A stretch of 32,010 bases of DNA from Gemmatimonadota bacterium (lineage in GTDB: Bacteria > Gemmatimonadota > Gemmatimonadetes > Longimicrobiales > Gaopeijiaceae), in contig DQPL01000083.1 in assembly GCA_015664885.1 (NCBI GenBank), positions 1 to 32,010 on the forward strand, written 5' to 3'. Made by a program: the position numbers and the translations under genes. This document shows, in pieces, positions 24,503 to 29,345 of the stretch. Within the stretch, counting starts at the first letter, position 1. Every line of letters begins with the position of its first letter. Below the pieces are notes generated by a model that saw nothing but the letters and a program-made list of their open reading frames with translations, made no database searches and was not told where the DNA came from.

Positions 24503-25762
24503 ATGCTGAGTGTCGCGTTGACCGGGAACGTTGCATCGGGCAAGTCGACGGTCGCGCAAGTCTGGCGGGCTGCGGGCGTGCCGGTGGTCAGCGCGGACGA
24601 GCTCTCTCGGCGCGCCGTGGAGCCCGGTACGCCTGGTCTTCACGCCGTTCTGGAGGCGTTCGATGAGCAACTGCTGACCGCGGACGGCGAGCTCGACCGG
24701 CCGCGCCTGGGCGAACTGGTATTTTCGGACGCCGAGGCGCTGAAGCGGCTCGAGTCCATCCTGCACCCCATCATCTGGCAGCTACGCGATCAATGGCTGG
24801 CCGACCGGACCGCGGAGGGCGCGCCGCTCGTCGTATCTGAGATCCCGCTGCTCTTCGAGGTAGACCGGCAAGGCGATTTCGACCGTGTGGTGCTCGTCGA
24901 TGCGCCGGACGACGAGCGACTTCGCCGCCTTGTGGAATTGCGAGGCGTCAGCTCAGACGATGCACGCCGGATGATGGCCGCGCAGATGGATCCCGTCGCG
25001 AAGCGAGCGAAGTCCGACTTCGTCATCAGCAACGACGGCGCGCCCGACGAACTGCACGCCGCGGCTGTCGAGGTCCTGCGGCAACTGCGCGACGGCTTGA
25101 ACGAAGAGGCCACGATGCGCATCGACCTGCACTTGCACACCGAGGGCAGCTGGGACTGCCTTTCGGATCCCGAGGCAGTGCTGGAGCGCGCGCTCGCGAA
25201 GGGGCTCGGCCGGATCGCGATCACCGACCACAACCAATTGCACGTGGCGCTGCGCATGGCCGAGGCGCACCCGGATCGGATTATTCCAGGTGAAGAGGTG
25301 AAGACCGCAGAAGGCATCGACGTGATCGGGCTGTATCTGTCCGAACAGATCCCTAAGGGTACACCGGCTAGAGAGACCATCGAACGCATCCGCGATCAAG
25401 GCGGGATCCCATATCTTCCCCACCCTTACGCCGGCGGTAAGGGAGGAGAGGGGCGCTTGGCGGACACCTTGGCCCCCCTCTGTGACATCGTCGAGGTTTT
25501 CAACGCGCGCCTGCACAAACCGCGGCAGAACCAGCTCGCCGAGCAGTTGGCCGCGCGCCACGGACGGTTGATGGGAGCCGGCTCCGACGCGCACACATTA
25601 GGCGAGCTGGGTAGGGCGTACGCCGTAGTGCCGCCACACCCGAACCGACCAGAGGCACTGCTTGCGGCTCTCGAGGGCGGACAGATCGTGGGTACGGCCT
25701 CGTCGCATCTCGTGCACCTTGCGTCCACGTGGGCCAAGGTGCGAAGCCGGTGGGGGCGGTAG
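24503..25762 (+). CDS. coaE: Dephospho-CoA kinase fused to PHP-domain phosphoesterase
   Basis: A 419-residue open frame joining two enzymes. Residues 1-200 are dephospho-CoA kinase, last step of CoA synthesis: P-loop GNVASGKST (8-16), SADELSRRAVEPG, LHPIIW, and EIPLLFE. Only four residues (EEAT) separate it from a complete PHP domain starting at Met205: DLHLHTEGSWDC with the HxH pair, ITDHNQLH, PGEEVKT, PYLPHPYAGG and GAGSDAHTLGE, all metal-binding motifs of the polymerase-and-histidinol-phosphatase superfamily; small PHP proteins of this type hydrolyse nucleotide or aminoacyl-type phosphates. AAGAGG at 25104-25109 lies five bases before ATG 25115, so the PHP part could also be made separately. 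Downstream, 61 bases on, comes a DHH phosphoesterase. The kinase assignment is firm; the PHP substrate is unknown. Confidence 0.88.
   Translation: MLSVALTGNVASGKSTVAQVWRAAGVPVVSADELSRRAVEPGTPGLHAVLEAFDEQLLTADGELDRPRLGELVFSDAEALKRLESILHPIIWQLRDQWLADRTAEGAPLVVSEIPLLFEVDRQGDFDRVVLVDAPDDERLRRLVELRGVSSDDARRMMAAQMDPVAKRAKSDFVISNDGAPDELHAAAVEVLRQLRDGLNEEATMRIDLHLHTEGSWDCLSDPEAVLERALAKGLGRIAITDHNQLHVALRMAEAHPDRIIPGEEVKTAEGIDVIGLYLSEQIPKGTPARETIERIRDQGGIPYLPHPYAGGKGGEGRLADTLAPLCDIVEVFNARLHKPRQNQLAEQLAARHGRLMGAGSDAHTLGELGRAYAVVPPHPNRPEALLAALEGGQIVGTASSHLVHLASTWAKVRSRWGR
25104..25109 (+). promoter_or_regulatory. Internal ribosome binding site before PHP domain
   Basis: AAGAGG sits five bases before the in-frame ATG 25115 that begins the PHP domain (MRIDLHLHT). 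PHP proteins often begin at exactly this motif, so separate initiation is plausible alongside the fused product. Confidence 0.4.
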
Positions 25763-25823: not shown

Positions 25824-26864
25824 TTGAGCTACCGGACGCCACGCGCGCGTGCGGCGATGGTCAACGAGGCCAGGGACGCTCTACTGGCTTCGCGTCGGGC
25901 GATACTCACGACCCACCTGAATGCGGACGGCGACGGGGCGGGTTCGGAAGCGGCCTTGGCCTCGTGGCTACGCGCCAACGGGACCGAGGTCTGGATCATT
26001 AATCCTACGCTTTTCCCGGACTCGCTCAGCTTCCTGATCGAGCGCGAAGAATGGATCGTTCCAGCAGGCTCCCGCCGAGCGCGCGATCTATGCGACCAAG
26101 CCGACCTCGCCGTGGTGTTGGACACGGGTGAGGTGCCACGCATCGGTCGCGTGCGCGATCTCATCCGCGATCTTCCCACTCTGGTGATCGATCACCACCA
26201 AACCGGAGAGCACGCCATCGGGGGCATCTCGTTCCGCGACCCTGAAGCTTGTGCTACCGGGGAACTGGTATGTGATCTGGTGCACGCGGCGGGTGGTCCT
26301 TGGACCGACCACATCGCGCTCGGCATTTACGTAGCTGTCCTGACCGACACGGGGTCCTTTCGGTTCTCCAATTCTACATCCGCGAGCCACCGGATTGCCG
26401 CTGACATGATCGAGCGTGGGGTTGAGCCCGAGAGTGTGTACGCGCGCGTCTATGGTGCTGCGCCTTTGAAGAGATACCAGATTCTACGCCATGCGCTGGA
26501 CACGTTGGAGTGCGACGCAGAGCACGGGATCTCGTGGATGACGGTGCCGTACGAGGTGGTCGACGAGCTCAATGCCACCGCCGACGACCTCGAGGGTATG
26601 GTTGATGTTCCTCGGTCGATTGAGGGGACCCAGGTCGGGCTGCTCTTCCGCAAGACCAGCAAAGGCGATATCAAGGTGTCGTTCCGCTCCAGTGGGCCGG
26701 TGGATGTAAACAAGCTCGCCCGCCGTTTCGGCGGTGGGGGTCATGTGAAGGCGTCTGGCGCGATGGTGCCGGGTCCGCTGGACGAGGCGATCGAAAAGGT
26801 GTTGGGGGCGACACGCAAGGCGGTGTTGCGGGACGCTGCCAAGGGAGAAAACGGGGAAGGATGA
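25824..26864 (+). CDS. DHH/DHHA1 phosphoesterase (NrnA-like oligoribonuclease / pAp phosphatase)
   Basis: A 346-residue cytoplasmic enzyme of the NrnA type, which degrades very short RNA (nanoRNA) and may dephosphorylate 3'-phosphoadenosine 5'-phosphate. DHH domain motifs in order: TTHLNADGDGAGSE (metal-binding D.DG), LAVVLDTGEVPRIGR, the IDHHQTGE core that names the family, and LTDTGSFRFSNS. The C-terminal DHHA1 domain ends with the substrate-binding FGGGGHVKASGA. I chose TTG 25824, with AGGA at 25813-25816, because residues from SYRTPRARAAM onward look coding while those upstream do not; ATG 25857 is the alternative. The stop overlaps the next start (ATGA). pAp arises from CoA-dependent carrier-protein modification, so a link with the upstream CoaE-PHP gene is conceivable. 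Confidence 0.9.
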   Translation: MSYRTPRARAAMVNEARDALLASRRAILTTHLNADGDGAGSEAALASWLRANGTEVWIINPTLFPDSLSFLIEREEWIVPAGSRRARDLCDQADLAVVLDTGEVPRIGRVRDLIRDLPTLVIDHHQTGEHAIGGISFRDPEACATGELVCDLVHAAGGPWTDHIALGIYVAVLTDTGSFRFSNSTSASHRIAADMIERGVEPESVYARVYGAAPLKRYQILRHALDTLECDAEHGISWMTVPYEVVDELNATADDLEGMVDVPRSIEGTQVGLLFRKTSKGDIKVSFRSSGPVDVNKLARRFGGGGHVKASGAMVPGPLDEAIEKVLGATRKAVLRDAAKGENGEG

Positions 26865-27301
26865 TGCAGTCTGGAGCGAAAGAGCGATCGGCAGACCCGG
26901 GTGTTCCGGAGGCGCTGCCCCGGTTGCTCATCCGAGTGCGCGAGCGCCTCGGCGCGGACGCGGTCGACCGGCTGTGGATTTTTCCTCCGGTTCGGCGCGG
27001 ACGACGGGAACAGGGCCTGGTGGCTGTGAGTACTTTTCTGGACGGTGAGGACCGGCGCGTGATAATCACCGCTGCGTACACCGCGGAGCAGACCGGAGGG
27101 GGCGTGACGTTCGAGGCGTCGTTCACTCAGGAAGGCGAGGCGCCGCCCGAGCGCTTTCCCAGCGTGATGGCGGGAGTCGTGCGCCGCAGCGGAGAGGGAC
27201 TTGGGGAAGCCCGCGAAGTGGAGATCCTCGGCTCCGCCGAGAAGTTCGAGCAATTGCTGGAGGAGGTCGATATGGACTTTTTCGAGACGCCACACCCGTG
27301 A
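26861..27301 (+). CDS. Conserved protein of unknown function between DHH and Fur genes
   Basis: A 146-residue soluble protein without signal or membrane segment. The middle (RLWIFPPVRRGRREQGLVAVSTFL, then RRVIITAAYTAE) alternates in beta-strand fashion; the end (EILGSAEKFEQLLEEVDMDFFE) is a helix. It has no cysteine and no motif I can tie to a family. The start overlaps the DHH phosphoesterase stop (ATGATG) and its stop overlaps the GTG start of the Fur-family gene, so all three are likely translated from one message, which is the only clue to its role. Confidence 0.75.
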   Translation: MMQSGAKERSADPGVPEALPRLLIRVRERLGADAVDRLWIFPPVRRGRREQGLVAVSTFLDGEDRRVIITAAYTAEQTGGGVTFEASFTQEGEAPPERFPSVMAGVVRRSGEGLGEAREVEILGSAEKFEQLLEEVDMDFFETPHP

Positions 27302-29003: not shown

Positions 29004-29345
29004 ATGGTGAGAAGCCTTCGGCACGCAGTACGCAGCCTGTTACGGACGCCCGGTTACACGGTCGCCTTCGTACTGACGCTGGGCCTCGGAATCGGCCTCA
29101 ATACGGCCATTTTCAGCGTGGTCAACGGTGTGCTGCTCGCGGGAGCTGCGCTTTTGGTGGGTGGTCTGGCGGCGGCGGCGTTGTCGCGCTTCCTCGTCGG
29201 CCTGCTCTACGAGGTGGAGGCTACCGACCCCTGGACGTGCCTCGGTGTGGGCGTGATTTTGGCGTCAGTGGCGCTGCTGGCTGCCTACGTGCCGGCGAAG
29301 CGAGCCACGCGAATCGACCCGACGGAGGCGTTGCGCTCAGAGTGA
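29004..29345 (+). CDS. Miniature ADOP-like permease with internal deletion
   Basis: A 113-residue intact frame made of the two ends of an ADOP-type (FtsX/MacB-like) permease. Residues 1-45 are the standard start of the first permease unit ([19 protein letters not shown], helix [24 protein letters not shown]). From residue 46 the sequence jumps to the last two helices and closing motif ([47 protein letters not shown]). About 700 residues, including both periplasmic domains, are missing, and the join is in frame near base 29139. It cannot act as a normal permease. It may be a relic or a small three-helix protein with its own role. No PadR gene is next to it. Confidence 0.7.

Follow-up and report, generated by a model that had tools for sequence, protein, structure and literature searches.

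A dephospho-CoA kinase fused in frame to a PHP phosphoesterase domain in Gemmatimonadota

The window analyzed here, a 32,010-nt stretch of contig DQPL01000083.1 from a Gemmatimonadota bacterium (assembly GCA_015664885.1), contains a single open frame on the plus strand (24503–25762) that starts with ATG at 24503, stops with TAG at 25762, and encodes 419 residues. Its N-terminal part (24509–25042) carries the P-loop GNVASGKS and matches the Pfam CoaE family (PF01121) over residues 3 to 180 (E = 1.2e-49, 168.9 bits versus a cutoff of 27); it also passes the cutoff of the dephospho-CoA kinase model TIGR00152 (147.8 versus 65.55 bits). P-loop/CoaE residues G8, G13, K14, and D32 were kept in 40 of 40 fused rows of the alignment. 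As judged from its sequence and a search of the genome, the N-terminal half is the only detected, predicted dephospho-CoA kinase of the cell. The C-terminal half, residues 205 to 419 (25115–25759), is a PHP phosphoesterase domain, with matches to PHP (PF02811; residues 208 to 254, 32 bits versus a cutoff of 26.4) and PHP_C (PF13263; residues 340 to 394, 49.2 versus 21.3 bits). The original prediction of a complete CoaE in frame with a PHP domain is thus borne out by one frame and three Pfam families above their cutoffs, and the DHH phosphoesterase gene expected next was found 3′ of the fusion as a DHH/DHHA1 gene of the NrnA type (25857–26864, plus strand; start set by inspection).

An AlphaFold2 model of the whole chain had a mean pLDDT of 91.3, with both domains confident; the relative placing of CoaE and PHP was uncertain (pTM 0.58). 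In the model, the C-terminal CoaE helix (residues 181 to 202, 25043–25108) leads straight into the first PHP strand, which begins at residue 205. A linker of four residues had been proposed; its shortness held, but its exact length did not, the modeled linker being shorter still. The ribosome binding site proposed ahead of Met205 is present as GAAGAGG (25103–25109) followed by the ATG of Met205 (25115–25117), an element (25103–25117, plus strand) that may be a relic or a weak internal start. In the sister species G116 (locus L081), CTG occupies the place of this ATG, and no start was found in the seven codons ahead of the PHP Asp. Among 41 fused rows, 17 had no ATG, GTG, or TTG in these seven codons, while a start together with a Shine-Dalgarno–like motif was found in five, including the window. 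A second product from the internal start is possible in the window species.

When relatives were searched for the same fusion, the check that the original prediction had called for, both domains were found in one match in at least 60 of 395 Gemmatimonadota genomes among the matches listed, and 59 of the 60 were stop-free. The fused genomes belong to four families (f1, f2, f7, and f9) and include single-contig assemblies (G069, G075, and G124). Each of the 40 fused genomes checked with PF01121 had exactly one CoaE, located at the fused gene. Seven of nine loci from Gemmatimonadota metagenome-assembled genomes (MAGs), L002 to L008, were also fused in one frame, and the other two (L009 and L010) had coaE and php side by side in different frames; loci L002 to L009 partly come from the same contigs as the 60 fused genomes (L004, L007, and L008 correspond to G153, G117, and G318). 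One match across both domains in so many genomes, together with the in-frame MAG loci, exceeds what is expected by chance. The CoaE-PHP fusion is real and does not reflect a sequencing error. The source genome is a 136-contig assembly, but it is extremely improbable that the join stems from a mistake in assembly or sequencing or from a stop codon lost very recently, given that independent assemblies, single-contig ones included, agree on the same frame in at least 60 of 395 genomes and that the internal start is missing in the sister species. The original prediction would have fallen if all close relatives carried two separate genes; instead, close relatives, including the sister species, are fused. 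Of the two options it had left open, the real two-domain enzyme is favored by the fused sister species with its CTG codon and by the single CoaE of the fused genomes. The other option, loss of the stop codon between two genes, fits the likely history, in which a directly adjacent and often overlapping pair changed its fused state repeatedly.

Eighty regions, taken together with the window, gave 78 coaE-php pairs, 41 fused and 37 separate; no pair came from L117 (PHP match only, at a contig edge) or from L159 and L160 (coaE only). Locus L118, truncated where its contig ends, was excluded from the tree and from residue counts, leaving 40 fused and 37 separate rows. Locus L102 (genome G110), with an N in the linker and one flagged TAG, was scored as fused in the row counts, as was L121 (genome G166), which has a longer linker and whose two domains appear as two matches in the 395-genome listing. 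In all 37 unfused loci, drawn from families f1, f2, f3, f7, and f9, coaE is followed immediately by php in the same orientation; these loci were picked by their PHP match and so tell the position of php rather than its frequency. The overlap between the two genes measures 4 bases in 20 loci, 8 bases in 8, and more than that in 2, and the other 7 pairs are separated by no more than 12 bases, as counted with the candidate start nearest a 4-base overlap, a choice that favors overlap. In a control, the php frame permitted a 4-base overlap in 28 of the 37 rows, 20 of which show one. Among these 28 rows, which are related and not independent, 10 have ATGA and 9 have GTGA; A occupies only 7.5% of coaE third positions.

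A tree of the 40 fused and 37 separate rows, built by a quick method with SH-aLRT support only, requires at least nine changes of state, at least four of them forced by starred branches. Placing all fused rows in a single clade was rejected (AU test, P = 0.0005), and so was one fused clade within family f1 (p-AU = 2e-6), a result of lesser weight because the group was named post hoc. The window sits in a 26-row f1 group (SH-aLRT 83), 24 rows of which are fused. Since a single fused clade is rejected, the genes must have been joined and/or split repeatedly; the counts of changes read the same for fusion and fission, and the simpler interpretation is that a coupled pair fused repeatedly. Together, the tree and the gene ends suggest that the fusion arose from an adjacent, often overlapping coaE-php pair through small changes of frame or stop codon and was made or reverted several times. 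The pairing is dispensable, since all six tested genomes of the f1 genera g2 and g7 keep coaE and have no close PHP (two were confirmed by locus). Genomes G017, G070, and others of these genera (L159 and L160) have coaE without a linked PHP, and other genera of the family have the PHP.

The PHP half was examined further with respect to fold and metal site. Modeled alone, the domain reached a pLDDT of 95.0 and a pTM of 0.91. A profile search of solved structures returned RNase AM (9etk and 7ug9), BAD_1165 (3e0f), TM0559 (2anu), and Cv1693 (2yb1) at the top, and fold comparison returned PsfC, TM0559, 3e38, BAD_1165, and RNase AM with Z scores that run from 19.5 down to 17.6 and include several ties. 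The two best fold matches, PsfC (7rty, Z = 19.5) and TM0559 (2anu, Z = 19.4), share just 17 to 21% identity with the domain, and we know of no link between either protein and CoA. Residues H210, H212, D218, D242, H243, E265, H307, E331, N334, R336, D362, and H364 were kept in every row counted, whether fused (40 of 40) or separate (37 of 37). Of the eight metal ligands of RNase AM named in PMC9410882, seven are kept, with the D20-D218 correspondence resting on a one-residue gap and chain numbers assumed to equal those of that paper. The eighth, His83, is replaced by Asp273 (25319–25321, plus strand); all 77 coaE-linked PHP rows have Asp at this position, and 15 of the 16 rows from other phyla (alignment A2) have Glu.

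The curated cutoffs, the fold (Z up to 19.5), and the tested metal-site positions (77 of 77 rows) all place the domain in the PHP superfamily. As in RNase AM (YciV/TrpH) and the 3′,5′-nucleotide bisphosphate phosphatase Cv1693, the fold is PHP; unlike in those enzymes, an insertion domain is absent, Asp273 stands for His83, and the domain is fused to CoaE. The insertion domain of RNase AM, which helps bind nucleotide according to PMC9410882, corresponds to ~85 to 87 extra residues between profile positions 72 and 78–79 in chains 9etk and 7ug9 and was absent from the model of the window PHP domain. The window protein scored 36.4 bits against the RNase AM model NF041577 (cutoff 400) and 59.1 bits against the CehA/McbA metallohydrolase model NF038032 (cutoff 80). 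By predicted fold and metal site, the half is therefore a PHP phosphoesterase, and by these tests it lies outside the RNase AM/Cv1693 family (NF041577, NF047791). It looks intact, and the kept metal-site positions suggest that it is probably a catalytic, metal-dependent enzyme.

CoaE with a C-terminal partner is already known. The mycobacterial CoaE-UPF0157 protein (GrpB; Rv1631, NF002879/PRK03333) likewise has an N-terminal CoaE followed by a partner of ~210 residues. In contrast, the partner here is a PHP domain: a GrpB/UPF0157 domain was not detected at the C terminus with NF002879, which matches only residues 1 to 191 of 419 and scores 183.3 of the 215 bits required. A CoaE with a PHP partner was not found in the open-license papers searched. 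Where that literature mentions dephospho-CoA kinase together with a Gemmatimonad, it does so in a table of phyla and in connection with a frame-transition cluster of a DNA glycosylase and CoaE.

The same PHP family occurs with other partners outside Gemmatimonadota. No coaE match was found near the PHP in any of 63 loci from other phyla (flanks searched with tblastn at E 1e-4, some of them short). In 41 of the 63, the PHP shares its frame with a glycosyltransferase-like region on its N-terminal side, and Pfam confirmed a family-4 glycosyltransferase (GT4) plus PHP in both loci scanned. These GT4-PHP loci are found in Actinobacteria (L058:3960-5693 and 40 others among L018 to L073). They resemble the fusion described here in having the same PHP family as the C-terminal fused domain, but differ in the N-terminal partner and in having Glu rather than Asp at position 273 in all six of their A2 rows. 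This PHP subfamily, marked by Asp or Glu at 273 and by the lack of an insertion domain, is thus the C-terminal partner of two unrelated enzymes, and its joining to other partners in other phyla points to a recruited module that may act on a different substrate with each partner.

CoA synthesis ends in an essential step, and to our knowledge little has been described of how bacteria limit or reverse it. An intact-looking phosphoesterase tied to the cell's only detected CoaE, by a join made or undone repeatedly, raises a testable question: is a CoA-pathway phosphate both added and removed on one chain? We tentatively favor, at a little under even odds, a genuine two-domain protein, born of an adjacent pair through repeated changes, whose predicted active PHP domain strips phosphate from a CoA-pathway metabolite; we infer both the substrate and the activity. 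The PHP half would take phosphate off CoA 3′-phosphate, 4′-phosphopantetheine, or damaged versions of either, which would couple synthesis one to one with clean-up or with control of flux. The single CoaE in 40 of 40 fused genomes and the metal-site residues kept in 77 of 77 PHP rows are consistent with this proposal. Against it stand the 63 loci from other phyla, with their lack of coaE matches and 41 glycosyltransferase joins, the six g2 and g7 genomes that keep coaE without a close PHP, and the fact that neighboring genes can fuse neutrally.

Phosphatases that curb CoA synthesis have precedents. Eukaryotic PANK4 likewise unites a kinase part, which resembles pantothenate kinase, with a phosphatase in the CoA pathway, although with another phosphatase family and at another pathway step. 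PMC9352595 describes it as a pseudokinase plus a DUF89 phosphatase that trims CoA synthesis, with the kinase half inactive in amniotes, and PMC13221220 describes MESH1 as a CoA 3′-phosphatase. By analogy, our guess with the best odds is that the PHP domain acts on a CoA-pathway phosphate, as PANK4 and MESH1 do via other domains.

The main competitor to phosphate removal from a CoA-pathway metabolite is that the fusion is real but the job of the PHP domain is unrelated to CoA, the join being a near-neutral by-product of coupled genes that share only expression. We regard this as unlikely but as a reading to be weighed seriously. It is consistent with the adjacency and frequent overlap of coaE and php, with the mixing of fused and unfused states on the tree, and with the glycosyltransferase-joined members of the family in other phyla (41 of 63 loci, Pfam on two). 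However, php adjoins coaE in 37 of 37 unfused loci across five families in spite of family-specific flanks, which suggests more than chance, in loci that were themselves picked by PHP.

A more specific form of a CoA-related function is a kinase/phosphatase switch, in which CoaE would add and PHP would remove the CoA 3′-phosphate (or PHP would trim a precursor), so that the balance between CoA and dephospho-CoA would be set on one chain. We consider such a switch doubtful; if true, bacteria would have an equivalent of MESH1 or PANK4 control, one found in these searches only in Gemmatimonadota.

The PHP domain could also dispose of 3′,5′-ADP (pAp) and short RNA, acting like RNase AM or Cv1693 beside the NrnA-like DHH protein and recycling the 3′,5′-ADP derived from CoA. 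According to PMC8268124, CoA metabolism yields pAp as a by-product, and both NrnA and Cv1693 hydrolyze it. RNase AM (7ug9 and 9etk) and Cv1693 (2yb1) are among the closest solved PHP structures. The neighborhood fits as well: an NrnA-like match lies 59 to 352 bases 3′ of the pair in 52 of 78 loci and ~1.8 to 2.2 kb away in another 13. In the remaining 13, some of which reach contig ends, it was not found; these include all eight f3 loci, which have php but showed no nearby match to nrnA (in two, the downstream sequence is shorter than 900 bases), a pattern that argues against this function. Another DHH gene lies 3 to 69 bases upstream of coaE in 15 of the 16 loci of families f7 and f9 (Pfam DHH on one). 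These 15 loci are L107 to L116, L143, L148, L149, L152, and L157, and all but L114 have the NrnA-like match downstream.

A separate RNase AM-like gene (NF041577 at E 1e-34 or better, none above the curated cutoff) was found in 28 of 30 fused genomes, 22 of 25 with separate genes, and 24 of 25 with a CoaE match alone among the matches listed, a group in which G001 and G039 carry a PHP of this family at another site. The idea that the linked PHP replaces RNase AM was rejected, as RNase AM-like genes are similarly common in the three groups (80 genomes). The window genome is among those with a separate RNase AM-like gene; with its NrnA-like gene, it already has both kinds of protein that hydrolyze pAp in other bacteria. 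This gene and the missing nucleotide-binding insertion domain, reflected in the NF041577 score of 36.4 of 400 bits, make plain pAp disposal an improbable role.

Still less probable is that the PHP half, as a C-terminal partner, mainly helps CoaE to fold or to stay stable, like UPF0157/GrpB in mycobacteria. PMC2765170 reports that the mycobacterial CoaE half is mostly insoluble alone and that a C-terminal GST can substitute, and the very short linker of the AlphaFold2 model would suit such a role. Yet folding help alone does not require the metal-site positions kept in 77 of 77 rows, and related CoaEs occur as separate proteins.

Several minor observations were made along the way. In the window, a 113-residue frame (29004–29345) looks by eye like an ABC-type permease that has kept both ends but lost its middle, a resemblance unsupported by Pfam, where no family scored above its cutoff and the best was a holin family (20 of 28.4 bits). 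A 146-residue protein without a Pfam match (26861–27301) is a neighbor of nrnA and fur in the majority of f1 and f2 loci. In a Chloroflexi MAG (L012:3075-5654), the PHP gene comes after a gene for the large subunit of exonuclease VII, identified by Pfam. Near the actinobacterial PHP, genes for inositol-1-phosphate synthase, CDP-alcohol phosphatidyltransferase, and PAP2 were found in 29, 19, and 17 of 49 loci examined, respectively, with one member of each component named by Pfam. At a guess, the actinobacterial GT4-PHP protein is a candidate phosphatase for phosphatidylinositol phosphate.
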